From positions 297,709 to 361,708 of the forward strand of contig NZ_BBLY01000001.1 in the NCBI RefSeq assembly GCF_000971175.1: a stretch of 64,000 nucleotides of DNA, written 5' to 3'. Both the position numbers and the translations under genes were made by a program. The DNA comes from Demequina pelophila. Lineage in GTDB: Bacteria; Actinomycetota; Actinomycetes; Actinomycetales; Demequinaceae. The notes below the pieces were generated by a model. That model had not been told where the DNA came from and searched no databases. It saw nothing but the letters and a program-made list of their open reading frames with translations. Position 1 is the stretch's first letter. Each line of letters begins with the position of its first letter. Below are positions 8,973 to 29,952 of the stretch, one piece after another.

Positions 8973-9740
8973 ATGGGCATGCTCGAAGGCAAGAACATCC
9001 TCGTCACCGGGGTGCTGACGGAGGGCTCGATCGCCTTCCACGTCGCGCGCCTGTGCCAGGAGCAGGGCGCGACGGTGGTCCTCACCGGCGTGGGCCGCTC
9101 CCTCAAGATCACCCAGGCGATGGGCCGGCGCCTGCCGGTCCAGGCGGCGGTGGTCGAACTCGACGTCACCGACCCCGACCACCTCGCGGCGCTCGCGGAC
9201 CGGGTCAAGGAGCACGTGCCGCACCTCGACGGCGTGGTCCACTCGATCGGCTTCGCGCCCCAGTCCGTCATGGGCGGCAACTTCCTCGCCGGCGAGTGGG
9301 ACGACGTCGCCACGGCGATGCACATCTCCGCGTACTCGCTCAAGGCGCTCGCGGTCGCCGCCGAGCCGCTCATGGTCGAGGGCTCCGCGATCGTGGGGCT
9401 CACCTTCGACGGCCGCTTCGCGTGGCCCGTCTACGACTGGATGGGCGTCGCCAAGGCCGCGCTCGAGGCCACCTCCCGCTACGTCGCGCGCGACCTGGGG
9501 CCGCAGGGGATCCGGTGCAACATCGTCTCCGCGGGGCCCATCAAGACCACCGCGGCGCGCCACATCCCGGGATTCGAGCAGATGGAGGGTCACTGGTCCG
9601 AGCGCGCCCCGCTGGGGTGGAACTCGGATGACCCGGAGCCCACCGCGCGGACCGTGACGGCCCTGCTCTCGGACTGGTTCCCGGCCACCACGGGCGAGAT
9701 GATCCACGTCGATGGCGGCGTTCACGCGATGGGCCAGTAG
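8973..9740 (+). CDS. fabI: enoyl-ACP reductase (InhA/FabI type)
   Basis: NADH-dependent enoyl-ACP reductase, the last step of each fatty acid elongation round. The 255-residue protein reads like InhA throughout: GSIAFHVARLCQEQGA for the cofactor site, DGVVHSIGFAPQ, MHISAYSLKAL, and the catalytic Tyr-x6-Lys in YDWMGVAK. It ends in TTGEMIHVDGGVHAMGQ. The start is ATG 8973 behind AAGGAAGCGAG; a second ATG two codons later cannot be excluded. It forms a two-gene operon with fabG. It belongs to the isoniazid/triclosan target class; nothing visible predicts resistance. Confidence 0.95.
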   Translation: MGMLEGKNILVTGVLTEGSIAFHVARLCQEQGATVVLTGVGRSLKITQAMGRRLPVQAAVVELDVTDPDHLAALADRVKEHVPHLDGVVHSIGFAPQSVMGGNFLAGEWDDVATAMHISAYSLKALAVAAEPLMVEGSAIVGLTFDGRFAWPVYDWMGVAKAALEATSRYVARDLGPQGIRCNIVSAGPIKTTAARHIPGFEQMEGHWSERAPLGWNSDDPEPTARTVTALLSDWFPATTGEMIHVDGGVHAMGQ

Positions 9741-9747
9741 CCTCCGC

Positions 9748-9753
9748 TAGGCT
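9748..9753 (+). promoter_or_regulatory. -10 box TAGGCT, leaderless promoter of SixA-like gene
   Basis: TAGGCT ends 6 nt before GTG 9760. Confidence 0.55.
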
Positions 9754-9759
9754 GACCAC

Positions 9760-10275
9760 GTGCCCACGCTCATCCTTGCCCGTCACGCCAAGGCAGAGGG
9801 CCCCACGCCCGGCCTGACCGACGACGCCCGCCCGCTCGCGCTCATCGGCCGCAAGGCCGCCGCCCGCCTCGGCGAGGTCATCGCCGAGGCCGGGTACAAC
9901 CCGGACCTCGCGCTCGTGTCTCCCGCGGTGCGCACCCAGCAGACGTGGAAGCTCATGGAGGCCTCGCTCGCGCCCACGTCGGCCAGCACCATCGACGCGC
10001 TGTACGAGACCCACGTCCAGGGCGTGCTCGCCGAGCTCGCGGAGCTGGGCGACGTCGAGACCGTGATCGTCGTGGGGCACGAGCCCACGTCGTCCGCGAC
10101 CGCGGCCTTCCTGGCCGGCAAGGGGTCGGACACGCCGGCCCTCAAGCGCATCGCGCACGGCATCCAGACCGGCACCGCCGCGGTGCTCGAGTTCGAGGGC
10201 GAGTGGGACTCGCTCAAGGCGCGCTCGGCGAGGCTCCTCACGGTGCTGTCCGGCCGCGACGTCGAGGTCCCCTGA
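9760..10275 (+). CDS. SixA-like histidine phosphatase superfamily protein
   Basis: Member of the histidine phosphatase (phosphoglycerate-mutase-like) superfamily, 171 residues. It opens with LILARHAKAEG, the RH motif whose histidine takes the phosphate, and has the second catalytic histidine in VIVVGHEPTSS. A shared arginine-containing region is SPAVRTQQTW. Size and the RHAK sequence match SixA, which removes phosphate from phosphohistidine in signalling proteins, but the substrate here is unknown. The start is GTG 9760 behind a leaderless promoter. A GH88-like gene begins 8 nt after its stop, so the two are probably co-transcribed; no functional link is evident. Confidence 0.85.
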   Translation: MPTLILARHAKAEGPTPGLTDDARPLALIGRKAAARLGEVIAEAGYNPDLALVSPAVRTQQTWKLMEASLAPTSASTIDALYETHVQGVLAELAELGDVETVIVVGHEPTSSATAAFLAGKGSDTPALKRIAHGIQTGTAAVLEFEGEWDSLKARSARLLTVLSGRDVEVP

Positions 10276-10283
10276 CCCCTCGC

Positions 10284-11234
10284 ATGACGGACGCCGCCGC
10301 GCTGACGCGCGCCCTCCTGACCTTTCCGCGCGCCTCGTGGGAGCAGGGTGTCGCCTCGCATGCGGCGCTCGACCGGGGAGATGCGGCGCTGGCCGCGATG
10401 CTCGCCCGCCACGGCGTCTCGCACGCCGCGCCCGACGGGCGGCTCGGCGCGCTCGGCGAGGCTGCCTCGGTCAACTCGGGCGCGCTGCTCGAGGCGACGC
10501 TTCGCCTGGGGACGGGGGACGATGCGGCGGCCCGGGCCGCGCAGACCCAGCGCTGGTGGCTGCTCCGGTACGCGCCGCGCGACGACTCGGGCGTGCTGCA
10601 TCACCGGCTCGACTCCGAGGAGGTGTGGGCCGACTCGGTCTACATGATCGTGCCCGCGCTGGTCGCGTGCGGGGACATCGCCCCGGCGGACATGCAGTAC
10701 CGCATGCACCGCGAGCACCTGTGGGATCCGGCGACGGGCGTGTACCGGCATCGGCGCGACCTCGCGACCGGCGAGCTCACCCGCGGGGCGCGCTGGGCCG
10801 GCGCGAGCGGATGGGTGGCCGCGGGCCTGGCCCGGTCGCTCCGGCTGGGAGTGGCGGCGGAGCAGATGCGGGAGCGGTGGCGGCGCGAGACGCGCGAGCT
10901 GCTCGACGCGTGCGCCGCGTTCGAGCGCCCGGACGGCCGGTTCCACGACGTGCTCGACGACCCGGAGTCCTTCGTCGACGGCACCGCCGGGCTCATGCTC
11001 GCGTACGCCGCCCTTACCGGCGCGGCCGGCGGCTGGCTGCCGGAGGCCTACGCGGAGTCGGGGGAGCGGTGGCTGGCCGCGTCGCTGGCCCGGGTGGACC
11101 AGGACGGCTTCGTCCGCGAGGTGTGCGGCGCGCCGCTGTTCGACCGGCCCGGGGTCTCGCCCGAGGCGCAGGCGTTCGCGCTCATGGCGCTGGCCGCGCG
11201 CGAGCGGCTCGACGGCACGCTCCCCACGACCTAG
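10284..11234 (+). CDS. GH88/GH105-like six-hairpin glycosidase family protein
   Basis: The 316-residue protein resembles unsaturated rhamnogalacturonyl/glucuronyl hydrolases of the six-hairpin (alpha/alpha-barrel) fold. Recurring helix-loop repeats include FPRASWEQGVASHAAL near the start, EEVWADSVYMIVPALVACG in the middle and SFVDGTAGLMLAYAAL later. The DSVYM and DGTAG segments match the region where this fold places its acidic catalytic residue. No signal peptide is seen, so it acts in the cytoplasm on imported sugars if it is an enzyme. The start is ATG 10284, 8 nt after the SixA-like gene. The stop is 3 nt from the end of convergent serB. The substrate is unassigned. Confidence 0.65.
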   Translation: MTDAAALTRALLTFPRASWEQGVASHAALDRGDAALAAMLARHGVSHAAPDGRLGALGEAASVNSGALLEATLRLGTGDDAAARAAQTQRWWLLRYAPRDDSGVLHHRLDSEEVWADSVYMIVPALVACGDIAPADMQYRMHREHLWDPATGVYRHRRDLATGELTRGARWAGASGWVAAGLARSLRLGVAAEQMRERWRRETRELLDACAAFERPDGRFHDVLDDPESFVDGTAGLMLAYAALTGAAGGWLPEAYAESGERWLAASLARVDQDGFVREVCGAPLFDRPGVSPEAQAFALMALAARERLDGTLPTT

Positions 11235-15174: not shown

Positions 15175-15257
15175 CGGTCCATCCCGCCACGTAATCCCCG
15201 GGGTGAGCGCCGCCCTGGCGGGCGGTGCGACCGTCCTGGCCGTGCATCGTCCCCCGG

Positions 15258-15263
15258 TACGAT
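15258..15263 (+). promoter_or_regulatory. -10 box TACGAT upstream of nfeD-SPFH operon
   Basis: TACGAT lies 47 nt before ATG 15311; the leader carries the GAGGAGG ribosome-binding site. A GGGMCGATGC-family 10-mer sits just upstream (15244-15253). Confidence 0.45.
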
Positions 15264-15310
15264 GTGGGGAGACGGCAAGCGCCATCGGGCGCGACGCGAG
15301 GAGGCGGACG

Positions 15311-15748
15311 ATGCAGTTCCTGTGGTGGTTCATCGGTGCGATGATCCTGGGCGCGGCCGAGCTGTTCACGCTCGATCTGCTGTTCGCGATGCTCGCCGTG
15401 GGCGCGCTCGCCGGCGGCGTGGCCGCGCTGCTGGGCGCGCCGTGGTGGCTGAGCACGATCGTCGCGCTGGCCGTGGCCTCCGCGCTCATCGCCGGGCTGC
15501 GGCCCTTCCTGCTGAAGACGCTGCGCGCCAAGGGCGAGGCACAGCCGCAGACCAATACCAAGGCGCTGGTGGGCCGCGAGGCCCGCGCCATCGACGAGGT
15601 CACCGAGGTGCGTGGCCGGGTCAAGCTCGCGGGCGAGGTCTGGACCGCCCGCACCGAGAACGACGCGCCGCCCATCCCCGAGGGGTCCGAGGTGCGCGTG
15701 CTGAGAATCGATGGGGCGACGGCGATCGTCGGCCCCGAGGAGGCATGA
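15311..15748 (+). CDS. NfeD-like membrane protein with OB-fold domain
   Basis: NfeD-family protein of 145 residues. Two or three hydrophobic helices (residues 3-70) are followed by a soluble OB-fold domain with the hallmark LVGREARAIDEV...GRVKLAGEVWTARTEN and VRVLRIDGATAIVGP. NfeD proteins partner SPFH/stomatin proteins in membrane microdomain complexes, and the next gene is exactly such a protein. ATG 15311 follows GAGGAGG at good spacing. The stop overlaps the start region of the SPFH gene, indicating coupled translation. It is the short form without the N-terminal ClpP-like protease domain. Confidence 0.9.
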   Translation: MQFLWWFIGAMILGAAELFTLDLLFAMLAVGALAGGVAALLGAPWWLSTIVALAVASALIAGLRPFLLKTLRAKGEAQPQTNTKALVGREARAIDEVTEVRGRVKLAGEVWTARTENDAPPIPEGSEVRVLRIDGATAIVGPEEA

Positions 15749-16827
15749 TGGAAGACGCTCAGATTGTCACGATCGTCGTGTGGGTCGCTGTCGCGGTTCT
15801 CGCGCTGTTCGTCATCACCGCGATCGCGAAGGCGGTCGTGGTGGTCCCGCAGACCCAGGCGATCATCGTCGAGCGGCTGGGCCGCTACCACGTCACCATG
15901 GATGCCGGACTGCACCTGCTGGTGCCGTTCATCGACCGGGCGCGTGCCAAGGTGGACCTGCGCGAGCAGGTGTACTCGTTCCCGCCGCAGTCGGTGATCA
16001 CGTCCGACAACCTGGTGGTCGACATCGACACGGTCATCTACTTCCAGGTGACGGACGCGAAGTCCGCGGTGTACGAGATCCAGAACTACATCATCGGTGT
16101 CGAGCAGCTCACCACCACGACGCTCCGTAACATCGTCGGCACCATGGACCTCGAGCAGACGCTCACCAGCCGCGACCAGATCAACGGCCAGCTGCGCGGC
16201 GTGCTCGACGAGGCGACCGGCCGCTGGGGCATCCGCGTCAACCGCGTGGAGCTCAAGTCGATCGAGCCGCCGCTGTCCATCAAGGACTCGATGGAGAAGC
16301 AGATGCGTGCCGAGCGTGACCGCCGCGCCGCGATCCTCACCGCGGAGGGCGTCAAGCAGTCGGCGATCCTGACCGCGGAGGGCGAGAAGCAGTCCGCGAT
16401 CCTCAAGGCCGAGGGTGAGGCGCAGTCCAAGATCCTCACCGCCGAGGGTGAGGCGCGCGCGATCCTGCAGGTGTTCGACGCCATCCACGAGGGCGACGCC
16501 GACTCCAAGCTGCTCGCGTACCAGTACCTGCAGGTGCTGCCCGAGATCGCGAAGACCGAGTCGAACAAGGTGTGGTTCGTGCCCACCGAGTTCACCGGCG
16601 CGCTCAAGTCCATCTCCGCGGCGTTCGGCGCCGAGGAGTCGCTGTCGCCGCTCGAGCGCGACCCCGAGCGTGCCCGGACGGGCTCGCGGATCACCTCCGC
16701 GCTCGCCGACCCGCGCGAGGCGCTCGAGGAGGCCCGCCGCCAGGCCGAGGGCTTCGCCGCCGAGGCGGACCAGGCCGGCACCGGCTCGGGCCGCAGCTTC
16801 GACCCGGACGCAGAGAAGGGGCAGTAA
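15748..16827 (+). CDS. SPFH/Band 7 (stomatin/QmcA-like) membrane protein
   Basis: Membrane-anchored SPFH protein of 359 residues: an N-terminal helix (about 5-28), then the Band 7 domain with VVPQTQAIIVERLGRYH and the ITSDNLVVDIDTVIYFQV core. A coiled-coil region follows with four near-repeats of the form AILTAEGxKQS (about residues 185-235). The C-terminal 60 residues are acidic and probably flexible. Such proteins form oligomeric cages or microdomains with NfeD. ATG 15745 and ATG 15748 are both in frame; GGAGG ends at 15743, so 15748 has the better spacing. A strong terminator follows at 16880. Confidence 0.9.
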   Translation: MEDAQIVTIVVWVAVAVLALFVITAIAKAVVVVPQTQAIIVERLGRYHVTMDAGLHLLVPFIDRARAKVDLREQVYSFPPQSVITSDNLVVDIDTVIYFQVTDAKSAVYEIQNYIIGVEQLTTTTLRNIVGTMDLEQTLTSRDQINGQLRGVLDEATGRWGIRVNRVELKSIEPPLSIKDSMEKQMRAERDRRAAILTAEGVKQSAILTAEGEKQSAILKAEGEAQSKILTAEGEARAILQVFDAIHEGDADSKLLAYQYLQVLPEIAKTESNKVWFVPTEFTGALKSISAAFGAEESLSPLERDPERARTGSRITSALADPREALEEARRQAEGFAAEADQAGTGSGRSFDPDAEKGQ

Positions 16828-16879
16828 GGGGTTCGGCTCGCGCCGCACCTACTCGACGCTCTCCCTACCGCTTCGTCCT

Positions 16880-16918
16880 CCGAAACGAGGCCATCTGGTT
16901 CAGATGGCCTCGTTTCGG
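16880..16918 (+). terminator. perfect 18-bp stem-loop terminator after the nfeD-SPFH operon
   Basis: Arms 16880-16897 and 16901-16918 pair perfectly (CCGAAACGAGGCCATCTG and its reverse complement) around the 3-nt loop GTT. There is no long T-run after it. Position between converging transcription units suits a bidirectional terminator. Confidence 0.85.
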
Positions 16919-16950
16919 CCGTGTGCGGGGCTCAACCCAGGCCGATGCGC

Positions 16951-17005
16951 GCCTCGCTCAGCCGGGCGGCGCCTCGGTCAGCCGGGCGGCGCCTCGCTCG
17001 GCCGG
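16951..17005. repeat. 20-bp tandem repeat, about 2.75 copies, at the 3' end of the DUF2157-like gene
   Basis: Units at 16951-16970, 16971-16990 and a partial unit 16991-17005 differ by one or two bases. The last codons and stop of the minus-strand gene fall inside the array, so the array repeats that gene's SEAPPG-stop end downstream of itself. Confidence 0.8.
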
Positions 17006-18126
17006 CGCGTCCGGTCCCGCACCATCCACACGGCGGCGACCACCAGCAGCACGCCCGTCGCGAGCACGCCGAGCCACGTCGCGAACGCGTCCTCGACGAC
17101 CTCCTCGATGAGCTGCGGCATGGCCGTGAGCAGGCCGATGCCGCCGGGCACGATCAACACCGCCACGTCCCGGCGCGTGATGGCGGCCACGATCATCGCC
17201 ACCGCGCACGCGACGGCCGCCGCCAGCACCCACGCGCGGGCGTCGTCGAAGGCGCTGGTCTGCAGCCCGTAGATCACCGTGAGCCCGCCGATCACGAGTC
17301 CGAGCTTCTCGGGCACGAGCCGCCCCAGCGCGGACAGCACGATCCACACGGCGCCGATGGCGGCCGTCGTGAGGCCCGAGGCGAGCGACATGGTCATTCC
17401 GCGATCGTCGAGCACCGTCGCGTAGAGCGCGGTCGCGGTGGCGAGGATGCCGGCGAGCAGGGCCATCTGGGCCAGCGCCCGCCGTCGCGCCGCGTAGATC
17501 GCCGCCGCAACCGCCGTGGCTGCGCCCGCCGCGATCAGCGCCGACGCGGGGTCCTCGACGCCGCCGCTGTCCGCGGAGAGCCAGGCGAGCCACGCGGTGA
17601 GGCCCACGGTCACGGCCAGCAGCGCGGAGGCGAGGCGCTGGGCCGGCGCCGTCGGATAGCGCGCCGTCACCAGGCCCGCGACCAGAGCGGCGATCGTCAG
17701 CGCCGCGACGACGCCCACCCGCGCCGCGTCGTTGAGGTCCTCCCACGCGTTGCCGATGAGGAACGTCACGGCCGACACGACGAGCACCGCGCCCAGGTAG
17801 CCGACGATCTCGCCCACCACCGCGAGCGCGTGCGGCGCGGCCGGTGGGGCCTCGTGCGCGGCCTCACGCGAAGCCTCCGACCCGGGCGCTGCCGGCGCGG
17901 CCTCACGCGAAGCCTCCGACCCGGGCGCTGCCGGCGCGGCCTCACCGGGCGGGGAGGGAGGCGTGGTCCCGTCCGGTGAGGAGATCTCCGTCGTCTCCAT
18001 CTGGCCGCGCTCGCGTTCGAAACCGAGCAGCCGCTCGGCGGTCTCGCGATCGATGAGGCCCGCCTGGGCCCACGCCTCGATGCGCGAGGCGATCCCCGGT
18101 CCGGTGCCTGCCGGTGCGTCGTCCAT
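16978..18126 (-). CDS. DUF2157-like multi-pass membrane protein
   Basis: Predicted membrane protein of 382 residues. A soluble N-terminus (about 1-95) has a helical ASRIEAWAQAGLIDRETAERLLGFERERG segment, the amphipathic start of DUF2157 proteins. It is followed by an Ala/Pro/Glu-rich spacer made of a 13-residue repeat and then about ten hydrophobic helices (about 100-370). The function of the family is unknown. ATG 18126 is the start with the family-like N-terminus. The gene's 3' end lies in a 20-bp tandem repeat. The divergent TrmH gene begins about 100 nt upstream. Confidence 0.7.
   Translation of the reverse strand: MDDAPAGTGPGIASRIEAWAQAGLIDRETAERLLGFERERGQMETTEISSPDGTTPPSPPGEAAPAAPGSEASREAAPAAPGSEASREAAHEAPPAAPHALAVVGEIVGYLGAVLVVSAVTFLIGNAWEDLNDAARVGVVAALTIAALVAGLVTARYPTAPAQRLASALLAVTVGLTAWLAWLSADSGGVEDPASALIAAGAATAVAAAIYAARRRALAQMALLAGILATATALYATVLDDRGMTMSLASGLTTAAIGAVWIVLSALGRLVPEKLGLVIGGLTVIYGLQTSAFDDARAWVLAAAVACAVAMIVAAITRRDVAVLIVPGGIGLLTAMPQLIEEVVEDAFATWLGVLATGVLLVVAAVWMVRDRTRRPSEAPPG
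17858..17945. repeat. 39-bp tandem repeat inside the DUF2157-like gene
   Basis: Two identical 39-bp units (17858-17896, 17897-17935) and the first 10 bp of a third. The unit encodes the 13-residue linker AAPAAPGSEASRE. Being in frame, copy number could vary without breaking the protein. Confidence 0.85.
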
Positions 18127-19541: not shown

Positions 19542-19574
19542 ATGGGTGGACGATGAGACGGCCGGGAGGTGGGT

Positions 19575-20297
19575 ATGGAGACGGTGGAGGCTCGCCTCGC
19601 CAAGGCGCGTGAGGCGCTCGCGGGGGTGCAGCGGAGGGTCGGCACCACGCGGGAGCGATGGGAGGCTCCCGTGCTCCCGCTCGCGCCGGTGCTCGACCAG
19701 GTGCTGCCGGAGGGGTTGAGGCGCGGGCGCGTGGTCGCGGTGGACGGCTCCACGTCGCTCCTGCTCGCGCTCGCGGCGGAGGCGTCGCGCGCCGGGGCGT
19801 GGACCGCGTTCGTCGGCCTGCCCTCGGTCGGGGTGGTCGCGGCCGCCCGACGCGGGATCGATCTGGACCGGGTGGCCGCGATCCCGCATCCGGGCGCCCA
19901 CGCGGCCGCGGTCGCCGGTGCGTGCGTGGAGGGGATGGAACTGGTGTTGCTCGGGACGGGCCTCGCACTGTCGGACGCGGACCGGCGCCGGCTCGCCTCG
20001 CGGGCGCGCGAGCGTGGCGCGGTGCTGCTGTGCCAGGGGCGATGGCCCGGCGCGCACGCGACCGTAACGGCGCTGAGGTCGCGGTGGCACGGGCTGGGCG
20101 CGGGCGACGGGCGGCTGCGCGGCCGCGACCTCACCGTGCAGGTCGAGGGCCGCAACGCGGGCGCGCCCAGATTCGTGACCGTGCCGCTGGACGGCGAGGC
20201 GCCGTTGCTCGGTCGGGGCGGCGCGCCCGGGCGCGCCGCGGCGCGGGTCTCTTCCGGAGCCTCGGCGGGGCGGCGCGCCCTCGGAGGCGCGGCATGA
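19575..20297 (+). CDS. ImuA' (RecA-like accessory protein of the mutagenic repair cassette)
   Basis: First gene of the SOS mutasome cassette, 240 residues. It looks like a degenerate RecA-fold protein: PVLPLAPVLDQVLPEGLRRGRVVAVDGSTSLLLALAAEASRAGAWTAFVGLPS aligns in layout with the RecA core. The Walker A is replaced by DGSTSLLLA, with no P-loop lysine. The Gly/Ala/Arg-rich C-terminus is probably flexible. In mycobacteria ImuA' links ImuB, DnaE2 and the replisome. ATG 19575 is spaced 5-6 nt from GGGAGG and preferred over GTG 19569. Its TGA overlaps the imuB ATG. Assignment rests mostly on position. Confidence 0.75.
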   Translation: METVEARLAKAREALAGVQRRVGTTRERWEAPVLPLAPVLDQVLPEGLRRGRVVAVDGSTSLLLALAAEASRAGAWTAFVGLPSVGVVAAARRGIDLDRVAAIPHPGAHAAAVAGACVEGMELVLLGTGLALSDADRRRLASRARERGAVLLCQGRWPGAHATVTALRSRWHGLGAGDGRLRGRDLTVQVEGRNAGAPRFVTVPLDGEAPLLGRGGAPGRAAARVSSGASAGRRALGGAA

Positions 20298-22067
20298 GCG
20301 CGCGGGCGGGGGTGCGTGCGGGTGCCTCTCGGGCGGGGGCGCCTCGAACGTCCACGCCGTCCCGACCCGGCGCGCCCCGACCCGGCGCCGTGGTCGCCGC
20401 GGTCGAGACCGTCCGCCGCGTGGTCCTGTGGGTGCCGGACTGGCCCGTCGTCGCCGCGATGGCGGACGCGGGGCTGGGGGCGGAGGCGCCCGCGGCGGTG
20501 CTCCACGGCCGCGGCCTCGTCGCGGTATCCGCGGCCGCGCGGGCGGCCGGGGTGCGCCGCGGCTCGACCCGTCGGGTCGCCCAGCGGGTGCTGCCCGACC
20601 TCGCGATCCTGCCCTTCGACGAGGCGCGCGACTCGCGACGGTTCGAGGCGGTCGCCGCCGCGGCCGAGCAGGTGGTCGCCGGCGTGGAGATCTCCCGTCC
20701 CGGCCTGATGATCATTCCTGCCGGGGGAGCGGCCCGCTTCCACGGCTCGGAGGAGGCCCTGGCGGAGGCGCTCGTGGGCGCCGTCGCCCAGGATGCCGGC
20801 GTCGAGTGCTCCGTGGGCGCCGCGGACGGGCTGCTCGCCGCCGTGCTGGCCGCCCGCGGCGCGGACCTGGTGCCGCCCGGCGCCTCGCGCGACTACCTGG
20901 CGCCCGCCGCGGTCGACTCGATCACGCTCGCCGCGATGGAGCGCGCCCAGCGCGCCGAGGTCGAGCGCTTCGCGAGCGTGCTCGTGCGACTCGGCCTCCA
21001 CACCCTGGGCGACCTCGCGGCGCTGCCGCGCCCGGACCTGCTGTCCCGCTTCGGCCCGGTGGGCGCATGGGCGCATCGGCTCGCGTGTGGGGAGGACCTC
21101 GCCCCGCCGGTGCTGCGCCGCAGCGAGGAGGACATCGCGGTCGAGCACGTCTTCGAGGACCCCGCCGAGCGGATCGAGCAGCTCGCCGCCGTCGCCGCCG
21201 TCGCCGCAGAGCGCCTCGATCAGGCGCTGCTCGAGGCCGGCGTGCGCTGCGGCCGCGTGCGCATCACCGCGCGCACCGAGCGCGGCGAGGACCTCGAGCG
21301 CGTGTGGCGCACGGACGTGGGCACCCGCGCGGGCGCCTTCGCCCGCCACATGACGGACCGCGTGCGCTGGCAGCTCGAGGGCTGGCTGTCGGGGCGCGCG
21401 GGAGGGCCGGAGCCCGCGCCGCTGACGGCGCTCGGACTCGTGGCCGAGGACGTCGTGCCGCTCGGCGACGAGCAGGCCTATCTGTGGGGCGGAACCTCGG
21501 GCGCCGATGCGCGCGCCCACCGCTCCCTCGAGCGCGTCCAGGGGCTCCTCGGGGCCGAGGGCGTGCTCGCGGTCGCCGAGCAGGGCGGTCGCTCTCCCCG
21601 CGACAGGGCGTTGCTCACGCCCTGGGGCCAGGAGGCGCCGCCCGCCCGCGCGATCGCCCACCCGTGGCCGGGGCGCATCCCCGACCCGCCGCCCGCGACG
21701 GTGCCGCCGGCCCCGCGCCCCGCCCTCGTGCTGGACGCGGGCGGCGGCCTCGTCACCGTCAGCCGTCGCCTCGCCGTGAGCGCGCCACCCACCTGGGTGC
21801 GGCTCGAGGCGGACCCGGACGACGAGCGCGCTCGCGCGGCGAACCGGCACCCCTCCTCCGGGCACGTGGGCCGCGTCGAGGGGCCGGTGTGGGACATGCC
21901 GCGCCCGGTCGAGTCCTGGGCCGGACCCTGGCCGGTCGCGGAGCGCTGGTGGGCCCAGGACGGCTCGCGGCGCGCCTACCTCCAGGTCGCGCTGAGCGAC
22001 GGCGACGGCGGCACCACCGCGGTGCTGCTGGCCTTCACCCAGGGGCACTGGGAACTCGAGGGCGTCT

Positions 22068-22075
<8 letters not shown>
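20294..22075 (+). CDS. imuB: ImuB, catalytically degenerate Y-family polymerase-like protein
   Basis: Y-family polymerase-like scaffold of the translesion mutasome, 593 residues. It connects DnaE2 and the beta clamp rather than synthesising DNA. After a basic Ala/Pro N-terminus (1-40), the palm begins RRVVLWVPDWPVVAAM, where active polymerases have a metal-binding acidic DMDxFFA sequence, so the catalytic carboxylate is missing as expected of ImuB. A helix-hairpin-helix-like segment LGLHTLGDLAALPRPDLLSRFG and a little-finger region follow. The long Pro-rich C-terminus is typical. ATG 20294 overlaps the imuA' stop; its own stop overlaps the dnaE2 start by 8 nt. Confidence 0.88.
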
Positions 22076-25463
<3,388 letters not shown>

Positions 25464-25549: not shown

Positions 25550-25635
25550 GTCCGGGTGGCGGAATTGGCAGACGCGCTAGCTTGAGGTGCTAGTGCCCGT
25601 ATTAGGGCGTGGGGGTTCAAGTCCCCCCTCGGACA
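25550..25635 (+). tRNA. tRNA-Leu (anticodon GAG)
   Basis: 86-nt class II tRNA. Acceptor arms GTCCGGG and CTCGGAC pair with one G-U. The D arm contains GGCAGACGCGC. The anticodon stem CTAGC/GCTAG encloses loop TTGAGGT with anticodon GAG (reads CUC/CUU). A long variable arm (GCCCGTATTAGGGCG) and the T arm GGGGGTTCAAGTCCCCC follow; discriminator base A. The CCA end is not fully encoded. It forms the left edge of a lower-GC island. Confidence 0.96.
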
Positions 25636-25660
25636 CCGTGTGATGTCTCAGGACATCGTG

Positions 25661-25699
25661 AACGGGTGAACCCCCAGTGATGGGGGTTCACCCGTTTTT
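25661..25699 (+). terminator. strong hairpin terminator after tRNA-Leu
   Basis: Arms 25661-25675 and 25682-25696 pair perfectly over 15 bp (AACGGGTGAACCCCC) with a 6-nt loop and are followed by a T-run (the arm ends TT, then TTT). On the minus strand the same hairpin holds the stop codon of the transposase remnant. Confidence 0.85.
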
Positions 25700-25864
25700 G
25701 CGTTGGTAGCCGCGGCTGGGGTCGAGGGTGAAGGTCGCGAGGGTGTTGCCGGTGTCGGCGGTGATGATGGTGGCGTCGCGGTCGTGGATGAGTGCAATGA
25801 TCTCGGTGCGGGCGTGGGCGCGGCCGATGCCGAGGTGGTGGAGGCGCACGCAGCGGCGAACAGT
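25688..25864 (-). pseudogene. IS481-type transposase, C-terminal remnant (58 codons)
   Basis: On the minus strand, between an in-frame TGA at 25865-25867 and the stop at 25688-25690, the frame reads TVRRCVRLHHLGIGRAHART, then EIIALIHDRDATIITADTGN and TLATFTLDPSRGYQRKNG. This matches the characteristic C-terminus of IS481-family integrases (RLHHIGIGRTHA... and ELTLDPTRDYQ, from my knowledge of the family). The catalytic DDE core is absent and upstream sequence in this frame carries more stops, so it is a dead fragment. It shows that a mobile element once occupied the tRNA-Leu flank. Confidence 0.8.
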
Positions 25865-25928: not shown

Positions 25929-25966
25929 GATCCCCCTTGGTAGTGGTTCCGTAGGTGGAGGTATCA

Positions 25967-28321
25967 GTGCAACTCGACAAGCCGACCCTTGGCGACGTGG
26001 TTGACGGCGCGAAGACGCGCTATCAGATTCCCCTCTATCAGCGGACCTATGACTGGGGAACTCCGCAGTATGAGCAGTTGTGGGCAGATGTCCTTAGCCT
26101 CGCGGTTGCGAGGCGGGAGACCAAGGCCAAGGAGCACTTCCTCGGCACGTTGGTCTTGGACATGGGCCATCAGACTCCGAACGAGAACACATTTCTCGTA
26201 GTAGACGGCCAGCAGCGCCTCACAACGCTCACCATGCTGCTCGCGGCGCTTCGCGACGTCTACAAGGAGAGCGGCAGCTCCCGCGACAACGACACGGCCG
26301 AAGAGATCCATGAAGACCGCCTGGTGCATCGCAAGAAGCTCTCAGGCCCGGAGCGGTTTCGTCTATGGCCGACGCAGGGTGATCGCGCTGCCTACATGGA
26401 GGTGATTGACGGCGAGGTGGATCGCCGATCTGGCAGCAACATCGTTCAGGCGTACCTGTACTTCGTCAAGGCTATCCATGCCGCGATCAAGGAATCTGAA
26501 GTCGAACTATGCGAGCTCTATGACGCGATTCTCGACGGTCTGCGCTTCGTGTCAATTACGGCAGAAGCGCAGGACAACGTTTACGCCATCTTCGAATCGC
26601 TCAACAACACAGGCCTGAAGCTCACACAGGGCGACTTGCTTCGAAACTTCTATTTCTCGCGGCTCGGCGACCTTGCTGAATCGACCCATGAGTCATTCTG
26701 GTATCCGATGCAAGAGAGGCTCTCCCGCGCCGACCTTGCCCACCTCTTCTGGCTTGATATGACGTGGAGCAACACGGAAATCAAGAAGGACGACACGTTC
26801 AAGGAGCAAGCAGCCCGCGTAAGCGGATTGAGCCCCGAGGGTCTTCGAGATGAAGTGAAGCGGTTCAACCATCTCTCGGTGCTCCTTGAGGTAATGCGAC
26901 GTCCGAGCAACGAGACGGACTCAGCCGTGCGTCGTGCACTCCAACGCCTAGTGGACTTTGGCATTGAGTCGATCGACCCTCTCGTCCTTGGCCTACTCAG
27001 CCTGCGACAACAAAACCGGACCGACGCCACCCAGACTGCCGACGCGCTGGCGGTCATTGAAGCCTTCCTCGTGCGAAGGCTGGTCGTGCGTGCGCCACAC
27101 AACGCGCTCTCGCGTATCCTCATGCGCGCTTTCGGGTCTATTGACGAGTCCGATCCTGCAGGGTCGTTGCGCGACTACTTGTCTCGAGACAACAAGGACT
27201 TCGCGACGGATGATCAGATCCGCGAGGCGGTCGTGTCTGTGAACTTCTACCGATCGGGGTCTCGGAAGCAGCAAAAGACACTGCTGATGTGGCTTGAGGG
27301 CGCACTGGCCGGCAACGAACCCGCGGACCTCTCAAGGGCAACCGTTGAGCACGTGCTTCCTCAGAAGCTCAGTGACGACTGGCGTGGCGAGTTGAGTCCG
27401 GATCTTGGTGAATTCGATTCGCCCGAAGCAGTGCACGAGACGTACGTCCACACCTTGGCGAACCTCACTCTCTCGGGCTATAACTCCGCGCTGAGCAACA
27501 AACCGTTTGCGGAGAAGCGCAGCCTTCTCGTTGAGAAGGGGAACATCGAACTCAACAAGTGGATCGCTGGCAACGGGCAGTGGAGGCGCACCCAGATCAT
27601 CGAGCGCGGCAAGCTGTTGAGTGAGCAAATCATCACCTCCTGGCCCGGCCCGATTTCGGTGGCCCCCGTTGCGGACTCGTCGGCGCGCAATACGGAGGAG
27701 GTCGCTGATGCACTTCAGCGCGTTCCCGCGGGGAAGTGGGTTTCCTTCGGAGACCTCGCTAATGCGACTCAACTGACCATCGCCGCGGTCCGAGATGTCG
27801 TGGCTAAGGAAGACATCCAGTTCGGATGGCGTGTTATGGAAGCCGACGGCCGGTACTTCTCCGATAGTGCGTCAAGTGCATCGCGAGATCAACTTGAGAC
27901 CGATGGCGTTCAATTCGATGCCGCCGGTGCAGCGATGCAACAGCACCGTTGGCACTTCGCCACGAATGACAGTGACGCCCCAGTCGGTACACAGTCCGTT
28001 GCTAGCGAACTCCATGCCGGGCCAATCAAGGACTTCCTCGACGAGGCGGCAAACAGGCTGGCCCCCTCAGTTGCCGAAGCGCTGCGTGCCACCACTGCGG
28101 AGTTGCTGGCGCGCGGCGGGCGTGTTCTCTTGAGCATCGATGCTCAGGAGCAGGATGTGTTCACGGCAGCTCTGCATGACGTTGACGTCTCGGAGGCATT
28201 CGCAGAGGTACGACTGACCCCCTTTGGCGGCTTGTGGATTCGTCGGGATGTCTCTACCGAGTTTGAGTTGGTCGACGCGAAATCTGTCTCTGCGCTCCGT
28301 TTGCCAGTCCGCGCCGACTGA
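25967..28321 (+). CDS. DUF262-DUF1524 (GmrSD-like) protein with alkyltransferase-like DNA-binding segment; candidate modification-dependent defence nuclease
   Basis: 784-residue multidomain protein. Residues 21-30 (IPLYQRTYDW) and 80-87 (DGQQRLTT) are the signature motifs of DUF262, the nucleotide-using domain of GmrS/SspE-type enzymes; FESLNNTGLKLTQGDLL (209-225) is also typical. Residues 460-511 hold the DUF1524 HNH-type nuclease: VEHVLPQ with its histidine, then LANLTLSGYNSALSN. About residues 580-640, ALQRVPAGKWVSFGDLANAT to WRVMEADGRYFSD, resemble the helix-turn-helix DNA-binding domain of O6-alkylguanine-DNA alkyltransferases, without its PCHR cysteine site. The last 110 residues are unassigned. 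Family knowledge: DUF262/DUF1524 pairs restrict modified DNA. Inference: the extra domain reads the modified base. GTG 25967 is chosen for its GGAGG. Base composition is foreign to the window. Confidence 0.82.
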   Translation: MQLDKPTLGDVVDGAKTRYQIPLYQRTYDWGTPQYEQLWADVLSLAVARRETKAKEHFLGTLVLDMGHQTPNENTFLVVDGQQRLTTLTMLLAALRDVYKESGSSRDNDTAEEIHEDRLVHRKKLSGPERFRLWPTQGDRAAYMEVIDGEVDRRSGSNIVQAYLYFVKAIHAAIKESEVELCELYDAILDGLRFVSITAEAQDNVYAIFESLNNTGLKLTQGDLLRNFYFSRLGDLAESTHESFWYPMQERLSRADLAHLFWLDMTWSNTEIKKDDTFKEQAARVSGLSPEGLRDEVKRFNHLSVLLEVMRRPSNETDSAVRRALQRLVDFGIESIDPLVLGLLSLRQQNRTDATQTADALAVIEAFLVRRLVVRAPHNALSRILMRAFGSIDESDPAGSLRDYLSRDNKDFATDDQIREAVVSVNFYRSGSRKQQKTLLMWLEGALAGNEPADLSRATVEHVLPQKLSDDWRGELSPDLGEFDSPEAVHETYVHTLANLTLSGYNSALSNKPFAEKRSLLVEKGNIELNKWIAGNGQWRRTQIIERGKLLSEQIITSWPGPISVAPVADSSARNTEEVADALQRVPAGKWVSFGDLANATQLTIAAVRDVVAKEDIQFGWRVMEADGRYFSDSASSASRDQLETDGVQFDAAGAAMQQHRWHFATNDSDAPVGTQSVASELHAGPIKDFLDEAANRLAPSVAEALRATTAELLARGGRVLLSIDAQEQDVFTAALHDVDVSEAFAEVRLTPFGGLWIRRDVSTEFELVDAKSVSALRLPVRAD

Positions 28322-28461: not shown

Positions 28462-28551
28462 GCGACCAGCGCCACCGTCCGCGCGCGGCGCCCGTTCCAC
28501 GCCGCCGCGGGCCGCGCGCACGACGCGTCCCGCCCACCCGAAGGAGCCCCG

Positions 28552-29952
28552 GTGCCCGAGCCGACCCGCACCCGGGTGCCCCCGCCCGCCGAGTGGCTGG
28601 GCCGCGCCGAGGAATGGGCGGCCGGCTTCCGCGACTCGCGAGCCTCGCGCTGGTGGGTGACGCTGCTCTACGTCGTCGTCAGCGCCGTGATCGTCATCCC
28701 CGTGGTGACCGGTCCGGGCACGGCGCTGTCGCGCATCGACGAGCCCACCCACGCGGACTACGCCTACCAGGTCGCCCACGGCACGGTGCCGTACGCCGGG
28801 TCGGTGATCGCGCCGGAGATCCGCGACCTGTGGGCGTGCGCGGGCCAGGAGCGGTACGAGCTGCCCGCGTGCGGCGACGACGCCGAGGCGTGGGAGTTCC
28901 CCTACCAGGGGCAGCAGTACAACTACCCCCATCCGCCGCTGTACTACGCGGTGGTCGGCGTCCCGGCCCGCGCGATCGCCGCCGTCACGGGCACGGACTT
29001 CATCACGGCCGCACGCCTGCTGGGCATCGGCTGGCTCGCCGGCGGCATGCTGATGCTCTTCGTGGCCCTGCGCCGCTGGCGCATCGACCCCGCCGCCGCG
29101 ATCATCGCGCCGCTCCTGCTCCCGGCCTTCCCCCGCGTGCTCCACGCGGTGACCACCGTCAACCCGGACGCGGCCGCAATCCTGATCGGCGCATCGGCCC
29201 TCTGGCTCGCCGCGCGGATCCTGGTCGACGACGACGCACCGTGGTGGCTGGGCGCCCTGCTCGCCGGCGCGGCCGGCATATCGAAGACCATCACCACGGT
29301 GCCGTTCATCGCGCTCGGCGCGCTCATGACGTTCCGCGCCCTGCGCGACTGGCGCCGCCGCGGCCGCCCGCGAGGCAGGGACGTCGCCATGATCGCCGGG
29401 ATGGCGGGGGCGATCCTGCTGCCCTACCTCGCCTGGAGCGCGTTCCAGTCCGGACACGGCGACCCCCACTGGGTCAACCCCCTGGTGGGCCTCAACACGA
29501 GGGACGTCGTGGGCCTGCCGGGCTCGGAGTGGATGGAGACGCTGTTCAGCGGGCTCGAGCTGGCGTCCGACTACTACGTGCAGCCGCCGCTCAACGTGGC
29601 CCTGCTGGTGTCGTGGACCCGCCTGCTCAACGTGCTCATCATCGGCGCGATCTTCGCCGTCATCGTGGCCTGCGCCAAGGAGCCGGCCCGCCGCTCGCTC
29701 GGATGGCTGGTGCTCGCGGGGACCGCGCTGTTCCCGACCATCGTCCAGATCCAGGCCTACTTCAACACCGCCGTGCCGCAGTACTTCCCCCACGTCACGG
29801 GACGCTATGGGCTCGCGCTCATCCCGGCGGCCGTCGCGTGCATCGTGGTCGCCGCGCACAAGGCCGGCTATCGACGGCTGGTGTACGTGCTCAGCGCGGG
29901 CGGGCTGGTGGTGCTGGCGGTCGTCATCGGCAACGGGGTCCTCGTCTCCTGA
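28552..29952 (+). CDS. multi-pass membrane protein, GT-C glycosyltransferase-like (DUF2142/PMT type)
   Basis: Polytopic membrane protein of 466 residues with about ten hydrophobic helices. The first external loop carries RIDEPTHADYAYQVAHGTVP, an acidic Asp-Glu pair right after the first helix, as in GT-C glycosyltransferases that use lipid-linked sugars. The loop continues with PYQGQQYNYPHPPLYYAVVG, also typical of this fold. Donor and acceptor are unknown; cell-envelope glycosylation is a reasonable guess. GTG 28552 follows AAGGAG; the frame is open further upstream but that part lacks membrane sequence. The M20 peptidase gene begins 16 nt after the stop, with its own promoter. Confidence 0.7.
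   Translation: MPEPTRTRVPPPAEWLGRAEEWAAGFRDSRASRWWVTLLYVVVSAVIVIPVVTGPGTALSRIDEPTHADYAYQVAHGTVPYAGSVIAPEIRDLWACAGQERYELPACGDDAEAWEFPYQGQQYNYPHPPLYYAVVGVPARAIAAVTGTDFITAARLLGIGWLAGGMLMLFVALRRWRIDPAAAIIAPLLLPAFPRVLHAVTTVNPDAAAILIGASALWLAARILVDDDAPWWLGALLAGAAGISKTITTVPFIALGALMTFRALRDWRRRGRPRGRDVAMIAGMAGAILLPYLAWSAFQSGHGDPHWVNPLVGLNTRDVVGLPGSEWMETLFSGLELASDYYVQPPLNVALLVSWTRLLNVLIIGAIFAVIVACAKEPARRSLGWLVLAGTALFPTIVQIQAYFNTAVPQYFPHVTGRYGLALIPAAVACIVVAAHKAGYRRLVYVLSAGGLVVLAVVIGNGVLVS

Follow-up and report, generated by a model that had tools for sequence, protein, structure and literature searches.

A probable GmrSD-family nuclease of Demequina pelophila with a fused alkyltransferase-like domain that lacks known flipping and pocket residues

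In a stretch of 64,000 nucleotides of the Demequina pelophila genome (NCBI RefSeq assembly GCF_000971175.1, contig NZ_BBLY01000001.1, positions 297,709 to 361,708 of the forward strand; hereafter the window), a single gene between a tRNA-Leu and a probable membrane protein gene encodes a GmrSD-family protein in which DUF262 and DUF1524 domains are followed by an alkyltransferase-like (ATL) domain and a further C-terminal domain (Table 1). An initial annotation had proposed a DUF262-DUF1524 enzyme with a cysteine-less alkyltransferase-type domain, and both parts of this proposal were borne out: the two Pfam matches were found and their motifs are intact. The open reading frame (ORF) spans 25955-28321 on the plus strand; GGAGG sits upstream of the GTG at 25967, and this start agrees with the N-termini of close relatives in the alignment. 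In an alignment of 119 family proteins, from which P0017 (544 aa) was left out, the DGQQR motif is kept in 119/119, as are E461, H462 and P465, and Q466 is found in 118/119. Among the PADLOC matches listed (25 of 36), the best model was 'Orf5' (E 6.9e-119), accompanied by HEC-06, a type IV methyl-directed enzyme and SspE. The predicted model of the protein has SspE, DndI and BrxU among its top fold matches.

The third domain matches DNA_binding_1 (PF01035) in the window protein with an E of 0.0028, which is under Pfam's own cut-off. In the predicted model it shows the AGT C-terminal-domain fold with Atl1 as its best match, so that the structural comparison with alkyltransferase domains proposed in the initial annotation places it closest to the ATLs. 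At the site of the PCHRV motif, which holds the catalytic Cys of O6-alkylguanine-DNA alkyltransferases, the window protein reads FGWRV. The only PF01035 matches in its own genome are one OGT on contig C8 and the window gene. Residues 677-784 are, judging from the predicted model and the alignment, a diverged counterpart of an optional tail seen in relatives; OspA rows among the fold matches of this C-terminal domain were put down to chance beta-sheet likeness.

Table 1. Positions of the gene, its domains and motifs, and the flanking features in the window
Feature	Position	Strand	Basis or remark
GmrSD-family DUF262-DUF1524-ATL gene	25967..28321	+	GTG start, 784 aa
DUF262 / GmrSD_N domain	25991..26656	+	Pfam PF03235, E 1.4e-35
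DGQQR motif, residues 80-84	26204-26218	+	in DUF262 domain
DUF1524 / GmrSD_C HNH nuclease domain	27206..27625	+	Pfam PF07510, E 6.8e-24
E461 H462 ... P465 Q466 (HNH, EHxxP)	27347-27364	+	in DUF1524 domain
ATL domain, residues 570-664	27674..27958	+	Atl1 fold match, domain profile, residue counts
C-terminal alpha/beta domain, residues 677-784	27995..28318	+	secondary structure of predicted model; alignment
tRNA-Leu (gag), left landmark	25550..25637	+	ARAGORN; 13/14 same-genus stretches
Perfect 16-nt inverted repeat after tRNA, probable terminator	25661..25696	+	repeat search
58-codon open transposase C-terminus remnant, IS481-like by reading	25691..25864	-	translation
Downstream gene, probable membrane protein by eye; right landmark	28480..29949	+	matched in 15 other genomes of 39 searched (own included)

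According to excerpts of PMC10779285, the hallmarks of ATL proteins are an Arg finger (R39) and a Tyr (Y25), and in Atl1 two residues, W56 and P50, are placed next to the alkyl group and one, R69, next to the base. We compared these positions in 169 fused domains, 119 of them from the proteins of relatives including the window's own and 50 from loci. At the finger position the eight commonest residues are V 88, Q 34, A 16, N 9, I 5, S 4, R 3 and G 3; Arg is absent in 166/169, one of which, L049, has an Arg one position off, and the three domains with Arg in place are L057, L053 and L058. The W56 position holds A 142, G 12, V 4, S 4, T 4, P 2 and R 1 and never Trp, and Cys occurs at the active-site position in 0/169. 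The P50 position is missing in 169/169, the loop being shorter, and the R69 position is mostly Gly (112/169); these two are weaker marks, because among the four reference domains Atl1 alone has Pro and Arg there. The flipping Tyr is retained in 153/169 and R58, the Arg of the PCHR motif, in 167/169. The window protein itself has Ala at the finger, Phe594 at the flipping Tyr and Gly at the Cys/Trp position.

As controls we used the stand-alone PF01035 domains of the host's genus and order, namely 30 OGTs and 2 ATLs (60 PF01035 places reduced to 30 loci, with 6 weaker ATL-like places added, from which a motif filter recovered the two ATLs, so that the ATL control has n=2). The Arg finger is kept in 31/32 controls, and Cys or Trp is found in 32/32. 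Among the OGTs 29 have the Arg, the remaining one having Q with an adjacent Arg, and all 30 have the Cys, whereas the two ATLs have R, Y and W all present and the motif PWWRV. It can be seen that the finger Arg and the pocket Trp are missing from nearly the whole GmrSD-ATL family, and the domain is probably not a working ATL in the usual way. Since the PWWRV of the control ATLs resembles the xAWRV of the fused domains, the fused domain may derive from an actinobacterial ATL.

The nearest relatives by identity are P0002 (75%), P0003 (67%), and P0005 (Nesterenkonia aurantiaca) and P0006 (both 66%). A search for the same three-domain fusion and its neighbours, also proposed in the initial annotation, recovered one main actinobacterial clade, with a helicase gene near part of its loci (described below). 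A quick maximum-likelihood tree was built from 94 core sequences (four of 98 rows were dropped for broken or short cores); in it, 50 of the 51 ATL-bearing rows fall into one set of 53, the long-branched L152 lying outside. The 37 clade loci all come from Actinomycetota, as judged from their record titles. The ATL module also seems to have moved between lineages, because a finger-less ATL domain is present in L196 (same-genus genome G014, contig C6, 1868300-1872000), a protein of 1005 aa with 29% identity that lies outside the close family and has DUF262, DUF1524, RAMA, DUF4357 and the ATL domain in a row (ATL profile E 2.6e-26). L196 thus holds two putative reader modules in tandem; the RAMA domain has a proposed role in modified-DNA reading. 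RAMA, DUF4357 or DUF4268 was found in 3/10 scanned non-ATL relatives, directly after the nuclease in L093, further on in L092 and as a weak match in L082 (E 0.0095).

Many ATL members carry a further C-terminal domain and others stop after the ATL domain. The tail of P0098 matches DUF4268 (E 1.4e-11); we did not file the tail under this family, because no DUF4268 match is listed for 44 scanned sequences of the family. With the C-terminal half by itself (P0121) as query, no protein was found at E <= 0.001. In a separate search of phages, four records match over 69-71% of the query, which is the nuclease core; among plasmid records there are 50 matches, a single one of which covers 80% or more of the query. 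Two copies look broken: in L150 separate ORFs, several kb from each other, encode pieces of the core and the ATL part (9004-10579 and 15201-17762), and in L145 the core is split.

How such a protein might act can be considered from what is published on its relatives. BrxU and GmrSD target modified DNA, and nucleoside triphosphate (NTP) is involved, as stated in excerpts of PMC12707154 and PMC4619093, and SspE and DndI nick DNA under the control of NTP and phosphorothioate sensing (excerpts of PMC11662687). The mechanism that we favour, and to which we give an even chance, is that the window gene encodes a horizontally gained, stand-alone, type IV-like and NTP-controlled HNH nuclease of the GmrSD family, with a docking module derived from an ATL that does not flip bases in the canonical way. 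By analogy with the family, the DUF262 domain with its DGQQR motif would bind and hydrolyse NTP and so control the DUF1524 HNH domain, which would nick or cut incoming DNA, possibly that of phages. The ATL-derived domain would be a C-terminal accessory module that assists in placing the enzyme on its target DNA, probably through the helix-turn-helix, and it would dock without Arg-finger base flipping and without the alkyl pocket of true ATLs. Self-contained type IV-like action is the likeliest mode, because no DndC was found in the genome and, by eye, no modification gene was seen beside the window gene. For the ATL-derived domain a DNA-docking module is the simplest role, followed by a rebuilt reader or a protein-binding module.

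Two points weigh against this mechanism. The net charge of the helix-turn-helix has a median of 0 in the fused domains (n=169) as compared with +3 in each of the four reference domains, and such neutrality hints against strong DNA binding. In the host lineage the 30 OGTs have a median of +2; however, the two actinobacterial stand-alone ATLs that were recovered are not basic either (-0.5), which weakens the argument, and charge as a proof of no DNA binding was dropped because these ATLs are equally neutral to acidic. Moreover, 3/53 clade rows have no recognisable ATL domain, and the module may therefore be dispensable.

One alternative, which we regard as unlikely, is that the domain is still a modification reader, with a rebuilt pocket: the exchange of Cys for Ala would open space, and Trp591 together with the aromatic residue at 621 would make up a new binding site that accepts a modified base or a nucleotide. 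In favour of such a reader, Trp591 is present in 119/119 proteins and absent from the four aligned reference domains, position 621 (the old His) is always aromatic in the 119 proteins (W 81, H 26, Y 12), and other GmrSD proteins have RAMA after the nuclease. Yet Trp591 may be structural, and W at 621, which both actinobacterial ATLs share, is not necessarily a new feature.

Another explanation, to our mind no more probable than the rebuilt pocket, is that the ATL-derived domain no longer contacts DNA and serves as a protein-protein or autoinhibitory module, which would, for instance, dock a helicase or hold the nuclease shut. The neutral helix-turn-helix would fit this, as would the neighbouring genes, which were chosen by codon-position picking and direct tblastn after raw-ORF clustering was swamped by false frames in this GC-rich DNA. 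A UvrD-like helicase of one family was found by tblastn within 8 kb of 16/37 clade loci; at 10 of these it is no more than 150 bp away, and at 6 it is in addition encoded on the same strand, with gaps taken from tblastn ends and longest ORFs. Its copy at L033 (716 aa) matches the PADLOC GajB models (E 8e-34). The 37 loci include L050, in which the helicase is present and the ATL domain is not detectable; L030 (32% over 65%) was not counted as helicase-bearing, and L032, L048, L058 and L059, whose contigs are too short to judge, were counted as without helicase. Only 1/43 other, non-clade loci (L092) has the helicase nearby, a contrast that is confounded by taxonomy as these loci are mostly from other phyla. 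On the tree the trait needs 6 changes, with short-contig and protein-only rows counted as lacking. Against a docking role, searching for the helicase gave nothing at E <= 1e-12 in the window, nothing near 14/14 order-level relatives (flanks of ~8 kb, less at contig ends) and nothing at 21/37 clade loci; helicase docking therefore cannot be the general role.

It may also be asked whether the family as a whole is a new kind of system. A candidate, put forward tentatively and judged improbable, is an actinobacterial GmrSD-ATL defence family in which the finger-less, Cys-less ATL is a new DNA or nucleotide reader and which forms a two-gene system with the GajB-like helicase in Streptomyces, Micromonospora and relatives, the window copy being solitary. 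Several other neighbours were observed. In three scanned Micromonospora loci a gene for a Ser/Thr kinase with TPR matches lies upstream, and the kinase of L033 matches PD-T4-6 models. A Streptomyces plasmid copy (L124, outside the 37 clade loci) has a type I-E CRISPR operon at a distance of 6-11 kb and no helicase match at its locus. In Streptomyces loci L065, L046 and L074, at about 2-10 kb, the GmrSD-ATL gene is preceded by a conserved AAA helicase of ~2000 aa, which in L065 has an MTES_1575 nuclease domain, and in L065 and L046 a protein of ~300 aa, which has no Pfam match in L065, stands between the two. The D. pelophila genome has its own relative of the clade helicase (37%) on contig C5, close to another DUF262 gene than that of the window. 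The region of C5 at about 18000-57800 (L158, L159), outside the window, is a separate defence island that comprises two further DUF262 genes (585 and 602 aa) and three helicases, one DruE-like (2069 aa), one GajB-like of the UvrD type and one DrmD-like of the SNF2 type.

The initial annotation had suggested that the domain flips and senses alkylated or bulky bases and thereby targets the nuclease to modified DNA. We now hold this mechanism, which would resemble that of Atl1, to be quite improbable, since the finger Arg and the pocket Trp are nearly absent throughout the family and kept as Arg and as Cys or Trp in the host-lineage controls, and since the window protein has Phe for the Tyr; the Atl1-like fold, the Tyr and PCHR-motif Arg that most members retain, the few domains with an Arg at or next to the finger position, and the restriction of modified-base DNA by relatives (excerpts of PMC12707154) speak on its side. 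A phosphorothioate-sensing nuclease dependent on a DNA-sulfur modification system is very improbable, although SspE and DndI, which work with such systems, are the closest solved folds and the sensing Tyr25 of DndI (excerpts of PMC11662687) aligns with the YQR Tyr of the window protein, because that Tyr is found in 117/117 relatives with letters there and is no special mark, and DndC (TIGR03183) has no match in the 2.68-Mb assembly, ssp genes not having been searched for.

The fusion was described by the initial annotation as a variant not known as a system, which does not hold for the architecture. Excerpts of Machnicka et al. (2015; PMC4619093) report a PF01035 domain in several GmrSD homologs, mainly from Streptomyces, which is the same three-part architecture as in the window protein, although the latter is diverged, its PF01035 match being too weak for Pfam. 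At JGI, several relatives bear the name 'alkylated DNA nucleotide flippase Atl1'. In searches of the open-licence PMC literature this 2015 paper alone was found to mention the fusion, and no paper was recognised on GmrSD-ATL function or on the helicase neighbour. As far as could be found there, the new elements are the window gene as a member, the loss of residues for flipping and for the pocket, and the GajB-like helicase that recurs near clade loci. In comparison with the type IV enzymes BrxU and GmrSD the window protein has the extra ATL and C-terminal domains, and in comparison with S. pombe Atl1 and bacterial ATLs the fused domains are joined to a nuclease and have lost the finger and W56 as counted above. 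Unlike in Gabija, the GajB-like helicase of the clade adjoins a GmrSD-type nuclease gene and not GajA, and none was found beside the window gene. A repair-protein fold was thus reused in restriction enzymes and then stripped of its known sensing residues, and the flippase name given to relatives in one database probably misleads. Testable starting points for finding out what these common enzymes recognise are Trp591, which is conserved, the xAWRV motif and the helicase that recurs nearby.

The window gene is apparently a recent, horizontally gained single-gene insertion beside the tRNA-Leu, in agreement with the foreign base composition and tRNA-adjacent position noted in the initial annotation. 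The downstream gene was matched in 16/39 genomes searched, its own included, and empty sites were compared in stretches of 3.7-4.6 kb from 14 other genomes (G019, with a partial 31% match, was left out). In 13/14 of these same-genus stretches the tRNA-Leu(gag) lies directly before the downstream gene, in 9/14 the end of the upstream dnaE2 gene is seen, and the nuclease gene is absent from all 14 stretches. In L112 (G022), whose stretch lies at a contig end, there is no tRNA-Leu within ~3.2 kb upstream of the downstream gene. Among 24 other same-genus genomes the best long match to the nuclease is 32% identical, and G015 reaches 45% over 84 residues only. A search for att-like direct repeats and terminal inverted repeats turned up nothing beyond short pairs of a kind expected by chance; the two flanks have no word in common that is longer than 9 nt, and we propose no attachment site.

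The transposase remnant on the left side of the insertion is a probable trace of a mobile element. In other genomes an ORF of 307 aa is 74% identical to it, and further ORFs, 159-449 aa long, share 36-50%; three of these genomes have several copies each, and no match was found in plasmids. The two matching ORFs that were scanned contain rve/rve_3 integrase-core domains, one together with a sub-threshold IS481 match. Further to the left, the conserved region at positions 19569-25463 of the window resembles an ImuA'-ImuB-DnaE2 mutagenesis cassette, with gene names assigned by reading.
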